Shown here: piece after piece, positions 31,374 to 51,466 of the stretch
Layout: each line of letters begins with the position of its first letter
How positions within the stretch are numbered: position 1 is the first letter of the stretch
The notes under the pieces: generated by a model
What the model was told of the DNA's origin: nothing
Seen by the model: only the letters and a program-made list of their open reading frames with translations
Databases searched by the model: none
Program-made: the position numbers and the translations under genes
NCBI RefSeq assembly: GCF_001637325.1
Contig: NZ_LRXL01000037.1
Location: forward strand, 124,001-188,000
DNA length: 64,000 bases
Origin: Cochleicola gelatinilyticus
GTDB lineage: Bacteria > Bacteroidota > Bacteroidia > Flavobacteriales > Flavobacteriaceae
Direction: 5' to 3'

Positions 31374-31895
31374 CTAAAACAATTCAGCTACCTCTTTTCG
31401 AACGTATGTAAGTGCTTTTTGGGAAGGAGTAATTTCTTCCATAAAATTACGTAATAACCACTCTCTCATTTTATCGGATGCCCCTTGTTTTTCATGCATA
31501 GCCGCCTGTCTAATAACGTGAATAGTTGCATTCTTAGCTGCATTTACAAGATTCCAACATTCTTGAGAAACGTAAATTTGCTGCGTAAGATTGTGTTCGT
31601 ATTCTTGTTCAATGTTTTTAATTAAAAGATTCTCATAATCCTCCACCGATTCAGAATAAGGCTTTACTCGAACCAATAATTTATTTGGGTCCATACGTTC
31701 TAAAAATAATGTGATGCGTTCATACGACTGCAAGCGTAACGGAAGAACTTGCCCTTGCGCCTCTTTTTGAATTAAATACCGACGTCTTCCTTCTTCATTA
31801 GCGGTATGTCCCTTGAAAAAATAATATGCTACAACACCTACAACAATCGCAGGCAACAAATAAGCAAAATAGTTAATTATCTGAGTTATTTCCAT
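31374..31895 (-). CDS. membrane-anchored protein of unknown function (DUF7935-like)
   Basis: A 173-residue protein with one N-terminal membrane helix (about 6-27, IINYFAYLLPAIVVGVVAYYF) and a charged helical remainder (LQSYERITLFLERMDPNKLL, then EECITP-like end with TYVRKEVAEL). I recall a Flavobacteriaceae family of this shape named DUF7935, but cannot confirm that. It follows the glutamate-synthase-like gene by 7 bases on the same strand, so they are one operon. Confidence 0.7.
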   Translation of the reverse strand: MEITQIINYFAYLLPAIVVGVVAYYFFKGHTANEEGRRRYLIQKEAQGQVLPLRLQSYERITLFLERMDPNKLLVRVKPYSESVEDYENLLIKNIEQEYEHNLTQQIYVSQECWNLVNAAKNATIHVIRQAAMHEKQGASDKMREWLLRNFMEEITPSQKALTYVRKEVAELF

Positions 31896-31902
31896 AAATT
31901 AA

Positions 31903-33519
31903 TTAATATCGGACTTTGTCCTTTTGTTTCATTTTATTGACTTCCTTTTTCTCTTCCTTTTTACTGTAGTTTCCTCCCAAATAGGGGCAGTTCTGTAAAG
32001 CTTTAACGCTTTTAAAGGGAACAGCTACTTTATGATAGGCGAAAGAATCCGCTAAATTTTTGATCAGGTTTTTATCACCCAAACTAATTTCAACATCATC
32101 CATCGTAAATTGTGATGGATGCTCATATCCACAGGCATGTGTCATTTCAAGCAGTTCTTTTCTAAAGTTCTTAAAGTAAAAATGAGTACGGACCGCTTTA
32201 TCTTCAATATTAATACCTCGCTGTAACCACTTATTCTGTGTAGCCACTCCCGACGGACATGTATTGTTGTGACAAACCTTAGCTTGAATACATCCCACTG
32301 CCAACATTGCTTCACGAGCCACATTAATACAATCTACACCCATAGAGAACGCCATGGCAGCTCGTGCTGGAAATCCTAGTTTACCACTTCCAATGAATAC
32401 AACTCGTTCACATAAGTTGTGTTTTTTAAAAATTTTATAAAATTCGGTAAAACCAAATACCCAGGGGAGTGCCACGTGATCTGCAAAACTGGGAGGTGCG
32501 GCACCAGTACCTCCCTCACCACCATCGATGGTAATAAAGTCGGGACCTTTACCAGTTTCTTCCATTATACCTGCAAGTTTATTCCAGTCTTCTAATTTTC
32601 CGATTGCAGACTTTATTCCTACAGGCAAGCCAGTAGCTTCGGCAATGTCTTCTACAAATTGAAGTAACCCCTCAACGCCATCGAATGCTGAGTGTGTGGG
32701 CGGACTTAAAACATCTTTGCCCATAGGGACGTGCCGTATGCTCGCGATTTCTTCGGTTATTTTTGAAGCTGGTAAAACACCGCCTTTTCCAGGTTTGGCA
32801 CCTTGTGATAATTTTATTTCAATAGCGCGAATCTGTGGATTGTCATTTACTAATTGAATCATTTTTTCCATGGAAAAACCACCATCATCATCTCGCACTC
32901 CAAAGTATCCTGTTCCGAAGTGAAAAACGATATCGCCGCCTTTTTTATGGTAGGGTGAAAGTCCGCCTTCACCTGTATTATGATAGGCATGTGCTTGGGC
33001 ACATCCTTTATTTAAAGATTCTATAGCCCTTGCTGAAAGAGAGCCAAAACTCATGGCAGAAACATTGATTATTGAAGCAGGTCGAAATGGTCTTCGTCGC
33101 TTATTGTATTCCCCTATAATTTTCGCACAAGGTAAAAAATATGGATCTTTTGCATTTGGGTGATCTTCGGTTACTTTAAACGGAAGCATTGCATTATTAA
33201 TAAAAATATAATTCGCTTCATAAATATCACGATCGGTACCAAAACCTTCGTAATTATTTTCGTTTTTAGCAGATGCATAAATCCAACCGCGTTCAATACG
33301 GTTAAAGGGAAGCTCTTCTCTATTATTTGCGACGATATATTGTCGTAATTCGGGACCTATACTTTCGAGCATGTATCTTATATGCCCTACCAAAGGGAAA
33401 TTATGAAGTATGGTGTGGCGCTTGTTAAAAAAAATATCTCTAATTGCGATGAAGGCTAATACGAGAAGTATCCAAGCCCACCATGGGATTTGTCCTAAAA
33501 AATCGAATACAGGTTGCAT
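31903..33519 (-). CDS. FMN-binding glutamate synthase family protein
   Basis: A 538-residue protein with one N-terminal membrane helix (about 10-27) and a glutamate synthase central/FMN domain (INVSAMSFGSLSARAIESLN, GEGGLSPYHKKGGD, IEIKLSQGAKPGKGG, TIDGGEGGTGAAP). The segment C-IQAKV-C-HNNT-C-PSG supplies the cysteines of an Fe-S cluster. It lacks the glutaminase domain of full GltB, so it is a standalone member whose electron donor and true substrate are unknown. The M20 peptidase gene stops on the base before its start region, giving a tight operon. Confidence 0.9.
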   Translation of the reverse strand: MQPVFDFLGQIPWWAWILLVLAFIAIRDIFFNKRHTILHNFPLVGHIRYMLESIGPELRQYIVANNREELPFNRIERGWIYASAKNENNYEGFGTDRDIYEANYIFINNAMLPFKVTEDHPNAKDPYFLPCAKIIGEYNKRRRPFRPASIINVSAMSFGSLSARAIESLNKGCAQAHAYHNTGEGGLSPYHKKGGDIVFHFGTGYFGVRDDDGGFSMEKMIQLVNDNPQIRAIEIKLSQGAKPGKGGVLPASKITEEIASIRHVPMGKDVLSPPTHSAFDGVEGLLQFVEDIAEATGLPVGIKSAIGKLEDWNKLAGIMEETGKGPDFITIDGGEGGTGAAPPSFADHVALPWVFGFTEFYKIFKKHNLCERVVFIGSGKLGFPARAAMAFSMGVDCINVAREAMLAVGCIQAKVCHNNTCPSGVATQNKWLQRGINIEDKAVRTHFYFKNFRKELLEMTHACGYEHPSQFTMDDVEISLGDKNLIKNLADSFAYHKVAVPFKSVKALQNCPYLGGNYSKKEEKKEVNKMKQKDKVRY

Positions 33520-40667: not shown

Positions 40668-41504
40668 ATGAGCTATATTAAAACCACATCAAAAGAAAAA
40701 TCGAATCCTATTCATTTATATTATGAAGACTATGGCGAAGGACAGCCAGTAGTTTTAGTTCATGGATGGCCACTTAGTGGTGCGATGTTCGAATATCAAA
40801 AAGAAGCTATTGTTAATGCGGGTTTCCGTTGTATTACGTACGATAGAAGAGGTTTTGGTAAAAGTGATCAACCTTGGAATGGTTACGATTATGATACCAT
40901 GGCAACAGATCTTAATGATCTTATAAATTCATTGTCATTAAAAGACGTTATTCTTGTAGGTTTTTCCATGGGTGGAGGTGAATTAGGTAGATATGTTAGA
41001 AACTTCGGAACAGCGCATCTTTCAAAAATTGTTTTTTTAAGTTCGATTGCACCATTTATGCTTAAGACTGATGATAATCCAGATGGTGTATCTTCGGAAA
41101 CATTTGAAGAATTTAAAGAAGCAATTAGAAAAGATCGAGCTGGATTTATGGACGACTTCGGAAAGAACTTCGTTAATTATGAAGATAATAAAGATAAGGT
41201 AAGCGCAAAACAACTGCATTTTTGCTGGAGTATAGCAATGGGAGCTTTACCTAAAGGAACGTTAGATTGTATCGATGCTTTCGGAAAAACAGATTTACGT
41301 GAGGATCTAAAAAAAATAGATATTCCGTGCTTGTTTATTCACGGAGACAAAGATGAAGTAGTGCCAATAGCCCCTACAGCCAAACAAGGTCATAAGATTG
41401 TGAAAAACAGTTTGCTTAAAGTTATTAAAGGCGCTCCACATGGTTGTGTATTTACACATACAGAAGAAGTTAATTCTATCTTATTAGACTTTTTCAACTC
41501 CTAA
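40668..41504 (+). CDS. alpha/beta hydrolase, non-haem chloroperoxidase-like
   Basis: A 278-residue cytosolic hydrolase with oxyanion HGWPLSG, RRGFGKSDQPWNGYDYDTMA, nucleophile VGFSMGGGELGRYV, aspartate HGDKDEVVP and histidine GAPHG. The triad is complete. This is the usual form of bacterial cofactor-free chloroperoxidase/arylesterase relatives, which in practice are esterases. No signal peptide. A perfect terminator follows. Confidence 0.9.
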   Translation: MSYIKTTSKEKSNPIHLYYEDYGEGQPVVLVHGWPLSGAMFEYQKEAIVNAGFRCITYDRRGFGKSDQPWNGYDYDTMATDLNDLINSLSLKDVILVGFSMGGGELGRYVRNFGTAHLSKIVFLSSIAPFMLKTDDNPDGVSSETFEEFKEAIRKDRAGFMDDFGKNFVNYEDNKDKVSAKQLHFCWSIAMGALPKGTLDCIDAFGKTDLREDLKKIDIPCLFIHGDKDEVVPIAPTAKQGHKIVKNSLLKVIKGAPHGCVFTHTEEVNSILLDFFNS

Positions 41505-41525
41505 TAATTTTATAAATATTTGAAC

Positions 41526-41560
41526 AAATAATCCACTCGAAAGAGTGGATTATTTCTTTT
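41526..41560 (+). terminator. rho-independent terminator with GAAA tetraloop
   Basis: AAATAATCCACTC and GAGTGGATTATTT form a perfect 13-bp stem closed by GAAA, followed by CTTTTT. It is 22 bases after the chloroperoxidase-like gene. Confidence 0.92.
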
Positions 41561-42083
41561 TAATCTAAAAATCAATCATTTGTAAGATTTTTCTTTCTAT
41601 TTATCGATTTTATATTCAATATGTATTTTATTGTTTTTCAGTTATATAGTCTGAATGAGTTAAAAGAAAGTTGCATTAACGTTTCTGTAACATAAGTTTA
41701 ACATATTCAGTTTTTAAACGAATTTATGTATTTGAACTTCACTTAATTACGTAAAATCGTTGAATTAAAAATTTGTTGTCAGTTAAATCCTACACGATTT
41801 TAATAATCTTATTTCAATTCAAAACTCCTATTGTATACGTAGTTTAAATTTCTCACTTTTAAAGTAGTTAAAAATGTGATCACATTGTTGACGAACTAAC
41901 TCAAACTCAAAAAACTGCTTTCTAGTTTTATAGAATAACAATTCTATTTTTAGATTTTTCCAATTTTTTCATATCCCCTCAATTTTAAAAATGATTTTGT
42001 ATAGCACTTTTATACATGCTTTAGCGTGCAATAAATACTGCTTACGAAATGACAATTACTAACAGTTAAAAATTAAATCATTT
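41561..42083. other. long AT-rich leader of the curlin-repeat gene
   Basis: A 523-base spacer without any gene I can see. Close to the curlin gene it holds two small inverted repeats: GTATAGCACTTTTATAC at 41999-42015 and CATGCTTTAGCGTG at 42015-42028, 56-85 bases before the ATG. They may be in the leader of the transcript or near the promoter. A regulated promoter is inference only. Confidence 0.35.
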
Positions 42084-44360
42084 ATGAAAAAAGTATTATT
42101 TAGTGCAGTTTTATTATTCGGGGCGACCGTATTCGCTCAGCAGAATAATAGTAATGTTGATCAATTAGGAAACGACAACGTATCAACAACAGATCAAACC
42201 GGAATCACAAACGACTCTAATACCATTCAAGACGGGTTTTCGAACGTTTCGAGCGTAACTCAGTCTGGTACTACCAATGTTTCAGAAGTTTCTCAAACTG
42301 GAGAAGTTGATGGGGATGGAGAAAATGCAAATCACGAAGCTACCGTTAATCAGAATGGAACTCTAAATACTTCCGAAGTAATTCAGTTAGATGACGATAA
42401 TATTGCAAATGTTACACAAAGAGGAGATTTAAACGAAGCTTCTGTAAATCAAGATGGTTCTTCTCAACTTTCAGATATTAACCAACGAGGAGATGAAAAC
42501 ATGGCGGTAACTACTCAAGATGGAGATGCTGGAGACAGTGAACCAAACAATAGTAGTGCTATTAATCAAGTAGGTAATAATAACGTAGCTACTACCACTC
42601 AATCTGGTGAATTAAACGATGCTTCAACCAGACAAAATGGAAATAGTAATGAAACTATAACCAATCAAACAGGTACAGGAAACATGGCATCAACGTCACA
42701 ATTTGGTGGAGACGACGGTGAGAACAGAAATCATGAGGCAACCATTACCCAAAATGGAATGGAGAATGCATCAACCGCAACACAACGGGGTGACGATCAG
42801 ATCTTAGTGGTAGATCAAGATGGAACTTTAAATAGTTCGGATGCTTCACAAAGAGGATCTTCTAATCTAGCAACTATTACTCAAGATGGTATGGGTAACG
42901 AATCTGTGTCGGTTCAAAACGGAGATGCTGGTACAGCAGAACCTAATAATAATTTAGATGTAAATCAATTTGGTAACGGAAATAGTTCAGATGCAACTCA
43001 GTCTGGAAGTCTTAATACAGCGACTGTTGCACAAGGAAATCCTGCGAGCTCATCAGCTAGATCAAATGATAATGGAGCTGTAGTTTTTCAATCGGGTAAT
43101 GAAAATAATGCAGTTGTTAATACTATTGGTAATGACAATACAGTAATGCAGTCACAAAGAGGTGATGGTAACGATGCGAATGCTAAGCAAGGGAATTCAA
43201 GAGAGCTATTTCCTGGTTTCTTTCAAAATACAAGAAGTAATAATAATGACATTGTTCAAGATCAAAGAGGAACTGGGAACGATGCTGATGCTATTCAAGG
43301 CGGATTAGGTGCAGGTGGAAATCTTATCGATCAAGGTCAACGTGGAACAGAGAACGAAGCAATCGCTAATCAAAATGCGGGAGCAAGCAACAATGTGATT
43401 ACACAACGTCAACAAGGAACTTCGAACCTTGCGGATGCTATGCAGGGATCTGGTGGAGGAATTAGTACGTTCTCTAATGAAATCACTCAAACACAGACTG
43501 GAAACGGAAATAATGCAAAAGCAAGACAATTAATTACCACGAAGAACTCTACAGCTACTCAAACGCAGACAGGAAGAGATAACGTAGCAGATTCTAAGCA
43601 GCAAGGTGATAACAATACGACTACTCAAACTCAGAATGGAAGAGAGAACAATGCGGTAGTAGTTCAAGAAGGAACATTTGCAGGAACAAGCTTTGATAAT
43701 GTGGCAACACAAACACAAGGTGGTTTCATGAACGTAGCAGATCTTAATCAGAAAGGTGCTACGAATACTGGAACACAAACTCAAGATGGAACGATGAACA
43801 ATGCTACTGCAATGCAACGTGGTGATGGTCATACTGCATCTCAAACACAATCTGGACGTGAGAATTTAGCGGATGTAATCCAGAATACAGAAGTGAACGA
43901 TGCTTCTCAGCCAGGTGCAAATACAGCAACACAGTCACAAACAGGTCGTGAAAATGAAGCGTATTCAATTCAGACGTCACCTTTCGGAAACGGAACAAAT
44001 AATTCTTTAGTTTCTCAAACACAAATTGGACAAATGAACTTTGTAAGAACAGAGCAACAAGGTAACAACCATACTGCTACTATCTCTCAACAAGGAACAG
44101 GGAACGAGGCGTATGACCTTCAAAAAGGAGCAACTGAAACTTCTACAGTTACACAAAGAGGAACAGAAAACCTTAGTGAAGTAGTTCAAAACGGATTTGG
44201 ACATACGTCTACCGTAGATCAAGTTGGAACTGAAAACATGAGTGATGTTTTTCAAACAGGTGGACAAAATAGTTCTATGGTAAGCCAAAATGGACTTATG
44301 AATATGAGTACTGTAAGTCAGAACGGTAATGGAAATAACGCGTCTGTTAATCAGAACTAA
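42084..44360 (+). CDS. curlin-repeat amyloid-type secreted protein
   Basis: A 758-residue protein: a signal peptide (MKKVLFSAVLLFGATVFAQ), then almost nothing but curlin-like repeats of about 11 residues per strand (QxGxxNxxxxxQ, for example NQNGTLNTSEVIQ and TQRGDLNEASVNQ), roughly sixty strands. CsgA has five repeats, so this is about six times longer in repeat content. The C-terminal half shifts to a TQTQxGRxNxA type. A 133-residue super-repeat occurs twice (DNA offset exactly 399). It lacks a type IX sorting domain, so a Csg-type or other route is needed; no csgB, csgE, csgF or csgG is in the window. Fibre formation is inferred from the repeats. Confidence 0.9.
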   Translation: MKKVLFSAVLLFGATVFAQQNNSNVDQLGNDNVSTTDQTGITNDSNTIQDGFSNVSSVTQSGTTNVSEVSQTGEVDGDGENANHEATVNQNGTLNTSEVIQLDDDNIANVTQRGDLNEASVNQDGSSQLSDINQRGDENMAVTTQDGDAGDSEPNNSSAINQVGNNNVATTTQSGELNDASTRQNGNSNETITNQTGTGNMASTSQFGGDDGENRNHEATITQNGMENASTATQRGDDQILVVDQDGTLNSSDASQRGSSNLATITQDGMGNESVSVQNGDAGTAEPNNNLDVNQFGNGNSSDATQSGSLNTATVAQGNPASSSARSNDNGAVVFQSGNENNAVVNTIGNDNTVMQSQRGDGNDANAKQGNSRELFPGFFQNTRSNNNDIVQDQRGTGNDADAIQGGLGAGGNLIDQGQRGTENEAIANQNAGASNNVITQRQQGTSNLADAMQGSGGGISTFSNEITQTQTGNGNNAKARQLITTKNSTATQTQTGRDNVADSKQQGDNNTTTQTQNGRENNAVVVQEGTFAGTSFDNVATQTQGGFMNVADLNQKGATNTGTQTQDGTMNNATAMQRGDGHTASQTQSGRENLADVIQNTEVNDASQPGANTATQSQTGRENEAYSIQTSPFGNGTNNSLVSQTQIGQMNFVRTEQQGNNHTATISQQGTGNEAYDLQKGATETSTVTQRGTENLSEVVQNGFGHTSTVDQVGTENMSDVFQTGGQNSSMVSQNGLMNMSTVSQNGNGNNASVNQN

Positions 44361-44389
44361 TTTTCTATTGCTAATTTGATATAATGCAT

Positions 44390-44426
44390 AAAACTGCCAC
44401 TTATTACGAGTGGCAGTTTTTTTATT
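44390..44426. terminator. bidirectional rho-independent terminator
   Basis: AAAACTGCCACT pairs perfectly with AGTGGCAGTTTT around a 7-base loop, with T runs on both strands. It separates the convergent curlin-repeat and PD40/OmpA genes. Confidence 0.92.
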
Positions 44427-44441
44427 TAGTAGTGTGGCGAG

Positions 44442-46484
44442 TTAAAGACTTTTAATAACAAACTCACAACGTCTGTTGGTTTCGTGTTGTTCTTCGTCGC
44501 AGGCATCTTCGGTAGCACATTCTTGAATGGGTTGAGCTTCTCCGTAGCCTATGGCGGTAATTCTATTGGCTTCAATACCTTCTTCAATAAAGTATGCTAA
44601 TACAGAGTTTGCTCTTTTTTGCGATAATTCTTGATTGTATTTTGCCGTTCCGCGAATATCGGTGTGAGTACCAATTTCTAATACCATCTCAGGGTATTTT
44701 TTCATCATGTCTATTACCTTTTGAGAAATCTTTTTAGAATCTCGACGCATGTACCAAAGGTTGTAATCGAAACGCATATTCTCAACGCGAATCATGAGTT
44801 TATCATCGCGCTTAACAATGTCTTTTTCTTTTTGGATGATATTTTTCACTCGGTCTTTTTCTTCCTTTACTTTCATTTTTTCAGCAGCAACACGTTTGGC
44901 TTCTTCTTGCTTTCGAATACTTTCTAAAGAGACCAATGCCATGGAAGCATCGTTTGTCTGATTTCGTCTTTTTCCGAGGAAAATTTTCTTCTCATTATTT
45001 TGATAGCCTGCTTTAGAAGCATTTATTACAATAGATAATTCGCAACCTGCGGGAAGTTTAAATGTTCCATTTTCGTCGGTTGTAATTTTTCCTGCGATGG
45101 CGTTTCCGTCTGTTTCATTACTAATTTGTAAGGTTACGTTTTTAAGAACTTCATTAGTAGCCGCATCGGTAATAGTTCCAGCTATAAACTGTCCGCAATC
45201 TTCAATGTTAAGATCTTTAGTTTCAGTAAGAGAATAGATGTCGTCTTTTCCTTTTCCACCAGGTCGATTCGATGCAAAATAGCCTTGTTTTGTAGCCTGA
45301 TTAATATTGAATGAAAAATCATCGAACCCACTATTTACAGGAGTTCCTACATTGTCGGGTTTCTGAAAGGTGCCTTTTTTAGTTTCAGAAATAAAAACAT
45401 CTAATGCTCCAAATCCGGGATGTCCATTCGAAGAGAAATAAAGACTTCCATCTGAAGCCACAAAAGGAAATTGTTCGCGTTGTGGGGTGTTGATAGTGCT
45501 TCCCAAATTCACAGGTTCACCATACATCCCATCTTTTTTTATTGCTACGGAAAAAATATCGAAAGACCCATTTGTTCCCGGCATATCTGAAGCAAAGTAC
45601 AAGGTTTTCTCGTCTGGGCTCAATGCAGGATGTTCAATCGAAAAATTTTCACCATTAAAGGGGAGTACCGTGATATTTGTCCAAGTATCGTTCTCCCATG
45701 TCGCTTTGAACAGTTCGATATGTACTACATCATTTTCGTCGGTTTTTTTCTTTCCGTCAACATAGAAATTACGTGTAAAGTACATGGTCTTGCCGTCTTT
45801 AGTAAATACAGCGTTGGCTTCGTGTAGTTTTGTATTAATTTTTTCTGAAAATGGTTTTGCAACACTATCTCCAAACTTCATCCTATCTTTTTCTGCTGAA
45901 TAAAGGTCTAGGTACGCTTCACCATTCCATCCGTATGTAAAAGTTAGCAGTCCATTCTGTTTTTTAGGTGCAGCAAAAACTACTTCACTACCGTGTTCGA
46001 TCATTCCAAATTCTGAAAACTCGGTATTAATTTTTAAATTTTCTAATGCATAGCGATCACCGATGGCTCTTACATTTTCAAGGTATTCAAGGTCTTTTTC
46101 GAAGGCAGCAAGAGCTTCGAGGTCGTTGATCGATTTTAAATAATTCCGTTCTATCTTATTGGCGTCAGCATAATTGTTGTTAGCCTTTAAAGTTTGTACG
46201 TATTTAAAACGATAGTCGGCTTCGAGATCGTTTCCATATTTATTTGCCAAATAGCGATACCATCGAGATGCCGATGTAAAATCACCAATATTATAATAGC
46301 TATCCGCAAGATTTTTTATGACTTCAGTGTTGCTGTTTTTCTTTGTAATTTCTTTATATAATGGAATGGCTTGAGCGTAATAGGCATTTTCGAAATACCG
46401 ATTTGCGCGCTTTAGATCTGATTGTCCGTAGGTTATGGCAACACATCCAAGAAGGATTATTATAAGGGAGCTAAGTTTTTTCAT
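44442..46484 (-). CDS. PD40/OmpA family outer membrane protein
   Basis: A 680-residue exported protein (signal peptide 1-20). Residues about 22-125 are TPR-like helices (LKRANRYFENAYYAQAIPLY), 150-400 are PD40/WD40-like beta-propeller blades (HPALSPDEKTLYFASDMPG, FPFVASDGSLYFSSNGHPG), 425-500 a carboxypeptidase regulatory-like domain (GTITDAATNEVLKNVTL), and 560-680 an OmpA peptidoglycan-binding domain (LEIGTHTDIRGTAKYNQELS, RRCEFVI). This set is typical of the partner of PorP/SprF in type IX adhesin loci. It is the last gene of the operon with the SprF and adhesin genes, 10 bases after the former. Confidence 0.9.
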   Translation of the reverse strand: MKKLSSLIIILLGCVAITYGQSDLKRANRYFENAYYAQAIPLYKEITKKNSNTEVIKNLADSYYNIGDFTSASRWYRYLANKYGNDLEADYRFKYVQTLKANNNYADANKIERNYLKSINDLEALAAFEKDLEYLENVRAIGDRYALENLKINTEFSEFGMIEHGSEVVFAAPKKQNGLLTFTYGWNGEAYLDLYSAEKDRMKFGDSVAKPFSEKINTKLHEANAVFTKDGKTMYFTRNFYVDGKKKTDENDVVHIELFKATWENDTWTNITVLPFNGENFSIEHPALSPDEKTLYFASDMPGTNGSFDIFSVAIKKDGMYGEPVNLGSTINTPQREQFPFVASDGSLYFSSNGHPGFGALDVFISETKKGTFQKPDNVGTPVNSGFDDFSFNINQATKQGYFASNRPGGKGKDDIYSLTETKDLNIEDCGQFIAGTITDAATNEVLKNVTLQISNETDGNAIAGKITTDENGTFKLPAGCELSIVINASKAGYQNNEKKIFLGKRRNQTNDASMALVSLESIRKQEEAKRVAAEKMKVKEEKDRVKNIIQKEKDIVKRDDKLMIRVENMRFDYNLWYMRRDSKKISQKVIDMMKKYPEMVLEIGTHTDIRGTAKYNQELSQKRANSVLAYFIEEGIEANRITAIGYGEAQPIQECATEDACDEEQHETNRRCEFVIKSL

Positions 46485-46494
46485 AGTAGGTATT

Positions 46495-47460
46495 TTAGAA
46501 GAATCTTGGGGATTTATTGAAGCCTTTATTTAGTTTCATTAAATCAAGATCGTAAAGAAGAAAGATCTCATGCGATCCAGAGTTGTAGTTTCCGAAATTA
46601 GTCACGGTATAATCGTATGCATATCCTACTCGTAGCTCTGGGGTTATTTTAAAATTTACCATTGCACTCACGGCATCATCAATGCGATATGAAAGTCCTA
46701 GTTCAAAACGATCGTATAAAAGGGCATTCATAGAAACATCTACCATAAAAGGTGCATTTGCTACACCTCGTAAAAGAATACTTGGCTTTAGTAAGACAGT
46801 TTCATTGAGTTGATAAACATATCCACCAGTTAAGAAAATGTGTATTTCTTCAGAGCCTAATCTTTCGATGCCATCACTACTTTCAAGATGTTTTGTACTT
46901 AGTACATTTGGAGTTGAAAGTCCGACATAGTAAGTGTCTGTGTAATAAAATGCACCTACTCCAATATTTGGAAATGTTCTACTCTCTCCTGGACCGAAAG
47001 CTACATCGGTTCCTGCACCACCAGATTCTAATTGAAATCCTTCAAAATTAGTGTCAAACAAAGTTACTCCTGCTTTTAATCCTAAAGAAAGATGATGGCC
47101 TGTATTATTTAGTTGGAGTTTATAGGCAAAATCTCCATAGATATTATTTTCGCGAAGTGCTCCATCACCAATATCATCGGCAACAAATGAGAGTCCTAAC
47201 TCTACTTTTGTGTTAAATGGAACATGAGCAAATGCGGAGAATGTAGTGGGGCCACCAACAGCACCTACCCATTGGGAGCGATGAAAGCCACCAAAATTTA
47301 TAACTCCTAGATCATCTGTTGCATAGGCGGGGTTTACAAGACTCATATTATACATGTACTGTGTATATTGTGGGTCTTGTTGAGAAAAACCTGTACAGCC
47401 AATAGCGAATATTGAAACTAATAACAGATTTTTTATAGTACGTAGGTATTTATTCATCAT
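46495..47460 (-). CDS. PorP/SprF family outer membrane protein
   Basis: A 321-residue protein with a signal peptide (1-27) and an outer-membrane barrel of the PorP/SprF type: QQDPQYTQYMYNMSLVNPAY at the mature N-terminus, GFHRSQWVGAVGGPTTFSAF, and a final ELRVGYAYDYTV. In Flavobacterium, SprF is needed for export of the adhesin SprB; type B adhesins often have a dedicated SprF-like protein next to them. Here it lies 17 bases after the type B adhesin gene, supporting the same pairing. Confidence 0.93.
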   Translation of the reverse strand: MMNKYLRTIKNLLLVSIFAIGCTGFSQQDPQYTQYMYNMSLVNPAYATDDLGVINFGGFHRSQWVGAVGGPTTFSAFAHVPFNTKVELGLSFVADDIGDGALRENNIYGDFAYKLQLNNTGHHLSLGLKAGVTLFDTNFEGFQLESGGAGTDVAFGPGESRTFPNIGVGAFYYTDTYYVGLSTPNVLSTKHLESSDGIERLGSEEIHIFLTGGYVYQLNETVLLKPSILLRGVANAPFMVDVSMNALLYDRFELGLSYRIDDAVSAMVNFKITPELRVGYAYDYTVTNFGNYNSGSHEIFLLYDLDLMKLNKGFNKSPRFF

Positions 47461-47477
47461 TAAGTGTTATTCGGGGG

Positions 47478-50384
47478 TTAACGGCTTAAGTATAATCTTC
47501 CTTGCTTTGGGGCGAGGTTGTCTCGGTTAAAATTCACGACATAGAAGTAAACTCCAGCGGGTACGATATCGCTTCCTAAGCCACCAGAACTACTTGTTCC
47601 GTCCCAAGGGCCTGTAGCGGAATTTCCTTTAAAGAGTATTTTTCCGTAGCGATTATAAATTTCTAATGTGTAATCTGGAAATATAAATTGAAAGTTTACT
47701 AAGTTGTAAGTATCATTAACGTTGTCTCCATTAGGAGAAAAACCATCCGGGATAAGCGAATCGTAATTTGTAGGATCGCAATTATCTAGCATAACAATTA
47801 TTGGAATTCTAGCGCTATTACAACCAAATGTTGGATCTGTAGCTCCTACATAATAAGTTCCTTCTTCTAAGAGGTCATCGGTATCTAACGAGGCAGTGCC
47901 TGTAGCTGAGGCGAACCAAACGAGGTTGTAAGAAGCGTTTATTGTTATGTTTTCTTCAAGCTCTGCAATAGTAGGAAGATCGATAACACAAAGTTCAGGG
48001 TCACTTGACAAAACAGGAGCAGGAACGGTTATAACTGTGGCCGTAACAGCTAATCTATTAGGGTGCTCACAAACCCCTACTTGTTCAGTAGCGTAATAAG
48101 TTGTTCCATCCACAAGGAGAGTTGAAGCAGGAAGTCCAACACCTGCCGAAGCATCTGTGTACCAGATAATAGTGCCACCATTTTGAGAAGAAGCATTTAA
48201 ATCTGCTACGGTAGGCATATCTTCAGCACAAAATACTGGATTTGCATTGTTTGTTATTGGTGTTTCAGTTTCAATTAAAGAAACTACTACCACACTTCTG
48301 TTAGAACTATTACAGTCATTTTCTGGATTTGTCGCAGTTACGTAATAATCTTCTCCGTCGATAAGCGGAGAGTTTACAGCTAATTCTTCTGTTGAGTCTG
48401 CCGTATCATACCATTGTAGACCTTGCCCACTAATTACTGTTATGTCTGATATTCTTGGAACATCGGGTTCATAATCTCCTAAACAAAACGACTGAGAGGC
48501 ATCTAGGTTTGGAACATCAGGGATTCCATCAATTGAGAATGTTTCCGATTCTATAAAATCAAATTGCTCTCGGCATAAGGTGGTATCATTTTGAGTACTT
48601 TCAACAGTTACAATGTAATTGCCAGCAGGGAGTGTATTAATATTGATATCGTAGTTGGCAGTTCCTCCCGAAAATACGATTGTGTTTTGGGTTAAAACAA
48701 CAGAACTTCCTACTTCCATAACTTTATATGAAACCGTATACTGTCCATTATTTAGTTGAGGAGCATTAATAGTCACCATAACACTAGCAGCATCACAGGA
48801 ATTATCGATAATAAGATCCAATTCAATATTATCGGGTCTTGGGGTGACTTCGAAAGTTGTATCTATTGGTGCTATGGGACAAGGAGGAGCAAAATTTAAT
48901 GGCTCATTAATGACAATCGTATAAGTTCCTGTTTCAGTGATAAAAGCAGCGTCAATAATAAAACTACCGTCTCCATTAGTAAAAGTAATTTCTTCTGAAG
49001 TTAGCACTTGCATGGTTCCTGAAGGAGCCGTAAGTTCGTAATTTAGTGTATATTCTTCATTAGACTGTTGTATAAGTGAACTGTCAACCACATTCGAAAG
49101 ATATGCAGTAGTAGCTTCTCCAAAGCATATATCATCTGCAGTAAGTGTAGGTTGTTCAACCTCTAATATTGTAAAACTGTCTGTGGGAACATCTATAAAA
49201 CTTTCGCAGAGTGAGGCTGGTCCCATATCTGTAATTTCTACTACGATCTCTACATTAGTAGGTAGGGGTTCATTTAAAGTAAAAGACGTATTACCATTCG
49301 AAAACTGTATTCCTGGAATTGAATATGTTTGTGATACACCACCCGAAAGTTGGACAGTTACCTCATAAATGCTATCAACTAACAAGGAATCATCGTACAC
49401 GACATTTACAAGAGGGGGACCATTCCCTTCACAGTAATCATCTATTGATATAGTACCAACAAGGCTGAGTTGTTTTTCGATAGTTATTAAAACGGTAGTA
49501 AATTGATCTGGACACACCCCTTGTGTGGAGGAGACTTTATAAAGAAAGTTGAACATTCCTGGACCAAAAGTATCGTATATTTCTTGGAGGTTTATTATTG
49601 TATCGGCTGGAAAAGTTAGTTGTCCAGTTTCATCCATGTCGATCCAAACCCCATCTTCATCTTCATCTTCAAGTAAATCATGAAGGTTTAGATTGGTATA
49701 GTCTGAAAAATCATCTGTTTCACAAAACTCAAGATTTTCTGGCGTACCCGGATTGGGGAGTCGGTGAACTTCTAAAATTACCATAGATGTTCTTTCTGGA
49801 CAATTTCCAACGGCAGGAGTCGTGTACTGAAAAGTATAAAACCCAGGCTCTAATCCACCAGTTGTAAACATTTCGCCCGATAAATTTCCAGTAGCGTTAT
49901 TAGGAACTTCTTCCCAAACTCCATTAACATCTGTGTTTAAGTTATCTGAACTACTATCTAAAAAAGAAAATAAATTTACAGTATCTCCTTGACATGCATT
50001 GGCACCACCACTAGTATTACTTTCGCCAGGATATCCTCCTAAATTAATCGTGACGGTTGCGGTAGAGTTATCGCATGACGAAAACGAATATGTGAAAATA
50101 TGAATGTTCGCTCTATTTATTGCCCATAGATTTACAATTCCACTAGCCTCATCAAGGGCATTGTTGTTTAAAGGATTCTCAGCGATCCAAATACCACCGG
50201 GTTGTGGCGTACCACCTAGTTCGTCAAAAAGATTGAAAGTTTGGTTGGCTGAGTCAAGATCTTTTTCGCACACCTCCACAATTGAAGAAGTACCCGTACA
50301 TTGGGCGTTCGTTTGGAAGTTGAAGAATAAGAAACTAAATAATACTATGCTAAATACATAGTGTTTACCATAAAAGTTTAACAT
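47478..50384 (-). CDS. large secreted adhesin with T9SS type B sorting domain
   Basis: A 968-residue protein with a signal peptide (about 1-28) and many Ig-like/HYR-type modules, each with pairs of cysteines and segments such as GEDYYVTATNPENDC, GTTYYATEQVGVCEHPN and EGTYYVGATDPTFGC near 655-865. The last 92 residues (DGFSPNGDNVNDTYNL, then LEIYNRYGKILFKG, then VPAGVYFYVVNF) are the type B (gliding-associated) C-terminal domain, so export is by type IX with an SprF partner. It is the first gene of a three-gene operon with that SprF-like protein and the PD40/OmpA protein. A surface adhesin role is inferred from this arrangement. Confidence 0.9.
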   Translation of the reverse strand: MLNFYGKHYVFSIVLFSFLFFNFQTNAQCTGTSSIVEVCEKDLDSANQTFNLFDELGGTPQPGGIWIAENPLNNNALDEASGIVNLWAINRANIHIFTYSFSSCDNSTATVTINLGGYPGESNTSGGANACQGDTVNLFSFLDSSSDNLNTDVNGVWEEVPNNATGNLSGEMFTTGGLEPGFYTFQYTTPAVGNCPERTSMVILEVHRLPNPGTPENLEFCETDDFSDYTNLNLHDLLEDEDEDGVWIDMDETGQLTFPADTIINLQEIYDTFGPGMFNFLYKVSSTQGVCPDQFTTVLITIEKQLSLVGTISIDDYCEGNGPPLVNVVYDDSLLVDSIYEVTVQLSGGVSQTYSIPGIQFSNGNTSFTLNEPLPTNVEIVVEITDMGPASLCESFIDVPTDSFTILEVEQPTLTADDICFGEATTAYLSNVVDSSLIQQSNEEYTLNYELTAPSGTMQVLTSEEITFTNGDGSFIIDAAFITETGTYTIVINEPLNFAPPCPIAPIDTTFEVTPRPDNIELDLIIDNSCDAASVMVTINAPQLNNGQYTVSYKVMEVGSSVVLTQNTIVFSGGTANYDININTLPAGNYIVTVESTQNDTTLCREQFDFIESETFSIDGIPDVPNLDASQSFCLGDYEPDVPRISDITVISGQGLQWYDTADSTEELAVNSPLIDGEDYYVTATNPENDCNSSNRSVVVVSLIETETPITNNANPVFCAEDMPTVADLNASSQNGGTIIWYTDASAGVGLPASTLLVDGTTYYATEQVGVCEHPNRLAVTATVITVPAPVLSSDPELCVIDLPTIAELEENITINASYNLVWFASATGTASLDTDDLLEEGTYYVGATDPTFGCNSARIPIIVMLDNCDPTNYDSLIPDGFSPNGDNVNDTYNLVNFQFIFPDYTLEIYNRYGKILFKGNSATGPWDGTSSSGGLGSDIVPAGVYFYVVNFNRDNLAPKQGRLYLSR

Positions 50385-50556
50385 AATCGATTCGGGGGTT
50401 AAATTAAGTTTTCTTTAGGATTTGGACTACAAATATATATTTTAATATAATTAAAACAACGTTTTAGCGTAAAAATACGTGTTTTATCGATGTTGAGCTA
50501 TTTTTTTTCGTGTAATTCTTACAATTATTAATGTTTACATTAATTATTGGGTATAA

Positions 50557-50584
50557 AAAAAGCCGATCCTTTTAGGATCGGCTT
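50557..50584 (-). terminator. rho-independent terminator (minus strand)
   Basis: AGCCGATCCT pairs with AGGATCGGCT around a 3-base loop; on the minus strand a run of T follows. It ends the OmpA lipoprotein gene that starts at 51466. Confidence 0.9.
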
Positions 50585-50605
50585 TAAAGCTAGGCTTTAT
50601 AAAAT

Positions 50606-51466
50606 TTAATTGATCTTAGGATCTTTTAATCCGTCTTCGATCATATTATAGAATTGATCAATTTTTGGTAGTACTACAATTCTCGTTCTTCTGTTTTTAG
50701 ATCTTCCATCAGAATCAGCATTAGAAGCTACAGGAACATATTCTCCACGTCCACCAGCAGTCATACGAGCAGGAGCCACGCCAAATTCATTTTGTAAGAT
50801 TCGAACTACTGAAGTAGCACGTAGTACACTTAAATCCCAGTTATCTTTAATTCCTGAAGTCTTAATTGGCACATCATCTGTATGTCCTTCAACTAAAAAT
50901 TCAAAATCTGGTTTGTTATTTACTACTTTAGCTACTTTACCTAATACTTCACGTGCTCTCGAAGTTACCTGGTAACTACCACTGTTAAATAAAAGCTTAT
51001 CACTTATGTTTACATAAACAACACCTTTTTCCACGCTAATTTCAATATCTTGGTCATCTAAGTTCCCAATAGCTCCTTTTAAACTTTGAACTAAAGCAAG
51101 GTTTACAGAATCACGACGTGTAACCGCATCTTGTAACTTACGAATAGTGAGATCTTTTTCTTTTAAGCTTTCTAACGACTTTTCAAGATTATCAGCTCCT
51201 TTTCTAGTAAGGTCTGTAAAGTTTCCGATCTGTTTAATAAGATCCCCATTGGTCGCGTTTAAAGAAGCCACTTGACTCTTTAATGAATTATTTTCACTCT
51301 CAAGCCCCGACTTATCACTTAAACAATCATTTAATTTAACGGTTGCAGTGTTTAAAAGGTCTTTTGTTTGTTTTTGTTGTGCTTCTAATTCTGTGAATTT
51401 CTTCTTTGAAACACATGAAGTAAGCGCTAAGCTGGAACATACAGCTAATATCAAAAGTTTTTTCAT
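50606..51466 (-). CDS. OmpA family peptidoglycan-associated lipoprotein
   Basis: A 286-residue lipoprotein (lipobox LTSC, Cys18) with a coiled-coil region at about 22-130 (FTELEAQQKQTKDLLNTATV, EKSLESLKEKDLTIRKLQDA) and an OmpA/MotB domain at about 140-275 (VYVNISDKLLFNSGSYQVTS, VEGHTDDVPI, GGRGEYVPVASN, NRRTRIVVLP). It should tether the outer membrane to peptidoglycan. It is a monocistronic unit ended by its own terminator. Confidence 0.92.
   Translation of the reverse strand: MKKLLILAVCSSLALTSCVSKKKFTELEAQQKQTKDLLNTATVKLNDCLSDKSGLESENNSLKSQVASLNATNGDLIKQIGNFTDLTRKGADNLEKSLESLKEKDLTIRKLQDAVTRRDSVNLALVQSLKGAIGNLDDQDIEISVEKGVVYVNISDKLLFNSGSYQVTSRAREVLGKVAKVVNNKPDFEFLVEGHTDDVPIKTSGIKDNWDLSVLRATSVVRILQNEFGVAPARMTAGGRGEYVPVASNADSDGRSKNRRTRIVVLPKIDQFYNMIEDGLKDPKIN

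Follow-up and report, generated by a model that had tools for sequence, protein, structure and literature searches.

Does a very long curlin-repeat protein whose gene has no csg neighbours form a fibre system without the usual machinery, or is it a curli subunit encoded away from its partners? This question is raised by an open reading frame of Cochleicola gelatinilyticus that lies in a stretch of 64,000 nucleotides (hereafter the window; C36:124001-188000, in a genome of 53 contigs that is 99.98 percent complete) and that the first-pass annotation had described as solitary and without Csg partners. A curlin gene without csg neighbours says little until the whole genome is considered. On that scale, the 758-aa protein is best read as a long ordinary curli subunit whose gene stands apart from its partners, and not as a fibre system without machinery. 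The features on which the argument draws, in window coordinates, are the following.

42084..44360, plus strand: curlin-repeat protein of the CsgA type, 758 aa, 60 strands making 30 repeats (ORF, Pfam and profiles).
42084..42137, plus strand: predicted signal peptide, residues 1-18, with cleavage after VFA judged by eye.
42144..43136, plus strand: N-terminal zone, strands 1-27, with V, T or I on most strands at the second core position (profile parse).
43137..44003, plus strand: central zone, strands 28-49, with Gln at the second core position alternately over strands 28-48 and Ala at the first core position of the ten intervening strands (profile parse).
44004..44357, plus strand: C-terminal zone, strands 50-60, mostly ordinary (profile parse and fragment model).
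43104..43826, plus strand: conserved module, residues 341-581, with common long arcs, present at full length in 5 of 397 family genomes (alignment and profile search).
41526..41555, plus strand: terminator-like hairpin 3' of the upstream gene (hairpin scan).
44390..44420, plus strand: terminator-like hairpin 3' of the curlin gene (hairpin scan).

The gene is a single frame on the plus strand, with its ATG at 42084 and its stop at 44360, and the first estimate of about sixty curlin strands of 11 residues in 758 residues proved accurate. Indeed, a trained nine-position profile delineated 60 strands, that is 30 repeats, spaced by exactly 11 residues in 45 of the 59 gaps, the other 14 gaps being longer. 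N occupies strand position 1 in 51 of the 60 strands, Q position 7 in 59 and G position 9 in 50; the motif N.....Q.G occurs 40 times, whereas 2000 residue shuffles averaged 1.4 occurrences and never exceeded 7. A preceding profile, built from the 758-aa protein alone, gave 61 sites; the one at residue 603 breaks the strand alternation and is probably an arc. Curlin_rpt was the sole match in a Pfam scan with E up to 0.01 (E 3e-48, ten stretches), and its score of 161.9 bits is above the curated cut-off of 20.7. The N-terminus of the protein aligns with the N-termini of other curlins, and its C-terminus is the last strand, without a tail. The reported lack of a type IX sorting domain was confirmed: neither a Pfam scan (E up to 0.01) nor an NCBIfam scan (E up to 0.1) reported one, the sorting domains considered for a type IX substrate being type A, type B and CHU_C, and TIGR04131 was found in the neighbour at 47478-50384 and not in the 758-aa protein. 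An N22-like segment was also sought in the protein and not found, the strands beginning at residue 21.

The two terminator-like hairpins, one 3' of the upstream gene and one 3' of the curlin gene, suggest a one-gene transcript. Two pattern scans gave no usable promoter for the curlin gene: the sole sigma-70-type match (44587-44560) is on the minus strand, and the sole TAnnTTTG match in L001 (5242-5249) is downstream of the gene. As regards base composition, no signal of transfer was found, the GC3 of the curlin gene (0.224) being within the 0.209-0.330 of the 13 other window ORFs measured.

The observation that the window holds no Csg partner stands, the only CsgG and CsgF matches being on contig C52 and not on the window contig C36. 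The conclusion that the protein is solitary does not hold. A genome-wide search for CsgG and CsgF gave one match each (E 3.4e-65 and E 2.9e-29), both on C52, and CsgE (E 7.4e-15) and a CsgB-like gene were identified at this same csg locus. The genome thus has csgE, csgF, csgG, a csgB-like gene and at least five further csgA-type genes, and the 758-aa curlin gene, on C36, is outside the csg locus. The first-pass annotation had itself named a csg locus elsewhere in the genome as the finding that would speak against its reading, and what the search of the rest of the genome returned on C52 is largely that outcome.

The minus-strand genes of C52 are csgA-type genes, the CsgB-like gene (177 aa), CsgE, CsgF, CsgG, a 508-aa protein and, beyond the latter, a gene that we take to be PurM-like. 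The 177-aa CsgB-like gene has no Pfam match and an NCBIfam match only below the cut-off; it was named by its position and by BLAST, which matched it in 27 of the 30 csg stretches, the one of C. gelatinilyticus among them. The 758-aa protein scores above the cut-off of the NCBIfam CsgB model (NF007506; 209.9 versus 165 bits), yet we distrust and reject this label, because the score accumulates over nine repeat stretches and because the csg locus has its own, separate CsgB-like gene. The csgA-type genes extend past the end of C52, occupy C37 (3471 bases) and stand at the start of C51, with ORFs of 570, 348 (cut), 566, 514 (cut), 565 and 232 (cut) residues on C52, C37 and C51. These six ORFs or pieces represent at least five distinct genes, as the cut 232 and 348 could be one. 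The assembly breaks inside the csgA-type repeats, and the contigs would be adjacent in the order C51-C37-C52. The complete paralogues (565-570 aa) on C52, C37 and C51 (loci L034, L035 and L036, respectively) carry a C-terminal tail ending CADC, and Cys-bearing tails like these occur in seven other genomes of the 30. The 508-aa protein encoded after csgG (L034:3590-5113) has a carboxypeptidase-regulatory-like domain and BLAST matches in 29 of the 30 csg stretches; judged from this occurrence, it is a putative conserved accessory gene.

We consider it very likely that the 758-aa protein is a dispersed CsgA-type curlin subunit, exported via the CsgG, CsgE and CsgF of the csg locus and folding outside the cell as a solenoid. 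The basis of this reading is sequence, namely the repeats, the signal-like N-terminus, the presence of a csg locus, the co-occurrence within the family and the relatives located in csg loci. Export that depends on CsgG is the default expectation, because the genome holds csgE, csgF, csgG, a csgB-like gene and csgA-type genes. The export route, fibre formation, co-assembly and separate expression that we infer would be as follows. The protein would be made with a Sec signal peptide and held unfolded in the periplasm, and would then pass through the single CsgG/CsgE/CsgF machine provided by the csg locus. Outside the cell, it would form a two-sheet solenoid of 30 repeats, which would stack end to end, either with further copies of itself or with the tailed CsgA paralogues. 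Its gene, with hairpins on both sides, might be transcribed apart from the csg operon, the product serving as an alternative or modifying subunit.

The distribution of curlins in the family is consistent with this proposal. We surveyed 149 genomes of the family, each from a different genus. The 758-aa protein (by tblastn), a CsgF profile and a curlin profile each matched 30 genomes; the three lists are identical, and none of the 149 genomes has curlin repeats without CsgF, a co-occurrence that is partly automatic because the majority of curlins are encoded in csg loci. At least four genomes have curlin genes at a distance from csgF: C. gelatinilyticus, G073 with one such place, G072 with three, and G033 with three genes together at a single place. 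Three curlins of other genomes share a nearly gapless module with residues 341-581 of the 758-aa protein. Of these 241 residues, 140 are identical in a 1041-aa protein encoded at the G073 csg locus, 133 in a dispersed G072 curlin (558 aa) and 141 in a member of the G278 csg array (533 aa). A profile of this module gave full-length matches of 352 bits or more in five of 397 family genomes, the next best match reaching 81.2 bits. The fifth module-bearing genome is G284, of the same genus as G073. The module-bearing relatives are thus inside csg loci in G073, G278 and G284 and dispersed in G072. The invariant columns, counted over four modules (the one of G284, missed by the string search and found by the profile search, is outside this count), comprise 61 of 76 core positions, 27 of 57 long-arc, 17 of 51 short-arc and 7 of 57 outward strand positions. 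The long arcs are therefore conserved beyond the exposed strand faces. A genus-level search returned no relative besides the C. gelatinilyticus genome itself, and a wider genome scan returned one distant relative, Hymenobacter metallicola. In G278 (L117-L118), at least ten consecutive curlin genes lie upstream of csgB-E-F-G.

The N22 targeting segment is known from E. coli, and location of the gene inside the csg locus is usual for CsgA-type curlins; neither is taken to define the family. With the CsgA or curlin-repeat family (PF07012; 8c50, 8enq), the 758-aa protein shares the repeat motif N-x-psi-x-psi-x-Q-x-G-x-x, a signal-like N-terminus and a predicted solenoid; it differs from PF07012 members in its 30 repeats, a gene off the csg locus and a one-sheet Gln zone. 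In the relevant passages of a 2023 curli survey, curlins have 4-62 repeats and up to 30 copies per genome, an N22-like segment is exceptional, and about 2 percent of the genomes with CsgA are without CsgG (PMC10192328). Similarly, passages of Dueholm et al. 2012 describe up to six dissimilar csgA/B copies in some genera, Spirosoma included, with homologues of up to 529 aa and up to 22 repeat motifs; the extra copies, often in additional curli operons, were proposed to alter fibre properties and are perhaps regulated apart from the main operon (PMC3521004). Compared with the copies in those passages, the present protein has 758 aa and is encoded by a single stand-alone gene. Great length, multiple copies and the lack of N22 are thus curlin features already published, at least in the passages cited (PMC10192328, PMC3521004). 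Our analysis adds a case in which a curlin subunit is encoded apart from its exporter.

By sequence, the solved chain closest to the 758-aa protein is 8c50 (E 3e-22), followed by E. coli CsgA 8enq (E 0.0021). The first-pass annotation had asked for structure models and had named the lack of a stacked beta solenoid as a refuting outcome; a fragment model did not give that outcome, and the full-length model spoke for neither side. The full-length AlphaFold model (12 rows; pLDDT 62.7, pTM 0.45, residues 372-462 below 50) gave weak PDB matches, none under E 0.001 and none a curlin, and we rejected it as support on account of this low confidence and these weak matches. A model of fragment 465-758, made from 20 aligned curlins, reached pLDDT 74.3 and pTM 0.75. 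Its best PDB match, and the sole one under E 0.001, was 8c50 (P. korlensis CsgA; E 6.5e-8, prob 1.00), but with a TM of 0.37 and an rmsd of 14.6; E. coli CsgA 8enq came third (E 0.28). In this fragment, 102 residues have a pLDDT of 90 or more, mostly among the last 120, and the first 70 average below 50. The well-modelled part is thus mainly the C-terminal zone, the block means of the Gln zone ranging from 45 to 89.

The repeats themselves had been suggested to form two core zones, one in each half of the protein. Zones of different core chemistry are indeed present at the sequence level; they number three and do not correspond to two halves. In the central zone, Gln is at the second core position of strands 28, 30 and so on to 48, with Ala on all ten strands between, and strand 50 can be parsed two ways, which gives 12 or 11 Gln strands. 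We compared this pattern across 64 curlin ORFs from 30 genomes; cut pieces at contig ends were kept, and a few short or degenerate curlin genes with fewer than 5 motif matches were left out, as were the CsgB-like genes. In 26 of the 64, three or more strands have Gln at this position. All 64 curlins together give 181 pairs of successive Gln, with a spacing of exactly two strands in 171 of them and with neighbouring strands in 1. Within the 26 Gln curlins, which are related and hence not independent tests, 170 pairs are two strands apart (mean 33.7 and maximum 49 in 1000 shuffles) and 1 is on adjacent strands (mean 48.2 and minimum 31 in 1000 shuffles). Moreover, Ala is at the first core position of 81 percent of the strands between Gln strands, compared with 30 percent of the remaining strands, and this enrichment has the same direction within 25 of the 26 single proteins. 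The same Gln pattern was seen in the Hymenobacter metallicola curlin.

Since successive strands of the curlin fold alternate between two sheets (PMC10192328), Gln at every second strand would lie on one sheet. The 2023 survey reports a core of Ser/Thr and, at position 7, a ladder of Gln; Gln at the second core position is not described in its section 7 and the other passages cited here (PMC10192328). Our search of the open-licence PMC literature found no description of a one-sheet glutamine column, which does not establish its absence from print. It is possible, though we hold it to be somewhat doubtful, that a second type of amyloid core exists among flavobacterial curlins. In it, a continuous Gln column would lie buried in one sheet only, at the second core position, would pack against the alanines of the other sheet, and would be switched on and off along the subunit. 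Here, the column would span 11-12 strands between two ordinary zones and largely coincide with the conserved module; the long arcs of this module would be exposed at set positions along the fibre, giving built-in segments of different stability or binding. If structures agree, the one-sheet Gln column would be a simple, testable sequence rule for reading and designing curli cores.

The 64 curlins fall into two types. In the untailed type, which comprises most of them, the strands start at about residue 20-30 and the protein ends at or just after the last strand. In the tailed type, they start at residue 42-43 in C. gelatinilyticus and at 42-59 elsewhere (one row with a doubtful first site excepted), and a tail of about 40 residues contains cysteine. 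The CsgAs of the C. gelatinilyticus csg locus are of the tailed type and the 758-aa protein is of the untailed type, the former having about 22 extra N-terminal residues and the Cys-bearing tail. In a CsgG tree of 29 rows (G145, whose cut CsgG was under the 250-residue filter, is omitted), C. gelatinilyticus, G143 and the seven other tailed genomes make up a branch of nine rows (92/98), and 12 genomes, G072 and G073 among them, are across a branch supported 97/91. In a UvrD tree, which omits G033 and G145 (no locus returned), the 8 tailed genomes and these same 12 need at least four changes on well-supported branches, and C. gelatinilyticus is in an unresolved 14-row cluster that holds both csg types. 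A PurM tree, omitting G062, G073, G118, G137 and G145 (no PurM in the stretch fetched), was set aside as too weak, with 2 of 22 inner branches starred. The csg operons have probably either passed from one lineage to another or been sorted out of ancient duplicates, two histories that one gene tree cannot separate.

The chromosomal setting also bears on this history. A 9.1-kb block (window 41505-50605), made up of the curlin gene and an opposite-strand, type IX-linked OmpA/PD40, PorP/SprF and CHU_C operon, is missing between the same flanking genes in G072 and G073, where the orthologues of the hydrolase (40668-41504) and of the OmpA gene (50606-51466) are about 70 bases apart. In G100, these orthologues are separated by two small genes and a duplicate of OmpA. 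Among 148 genomes, the hydrolase is closest to those of G073, G072 and G100 (75, 73 and 71 percent), the next being at 49-50 percent. The curlin gene might be a relic, decaying or unexpressed, of a csg system that the lineage had before its csg operon was exchanged for the tailed type; the CsgG tree, which places C. gelatinilyticus with tailed genomes whereas the 758-aa protein is untailed, would fit this, as would a neighbouring hydrolase closest to genomes of the other csg type. We find such a relic quite unlikely, since the frame is intact across 30 repeats, the module is conserved in its core positions and its long arcs, and the terminators are in place. Moreover, the UvrD cluster of 14 rows holds both csg types, so that exchange is not proved, and a block missing from two relatives also fits acquisition.

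A curlin-like surface protein that takes another export route (e.g. type IX secretion) and stays outside curli fibres might be suspected from the lack of an N22-like segment and from the adjoining CHU_C/PorP-SprF/OmpA operon inside the same extra block, and is very improbable given that the protein has no reported type IX sorting domain, that this operon is read from the other strand and a terminator-like hairpin separates it from the curlin gene, and that curlin repeats were never found without CsgF in the family survey. The dispersed curli subunit served by the csg locus is thus the reading that we retain. Elsewhere in the window, the genes 31374-31895 and 31903-33519 are about 8 bases apart without a curlin between them; between their orthologues lies a different curlin, of 358 aa in G072 and 379 aa in G073.
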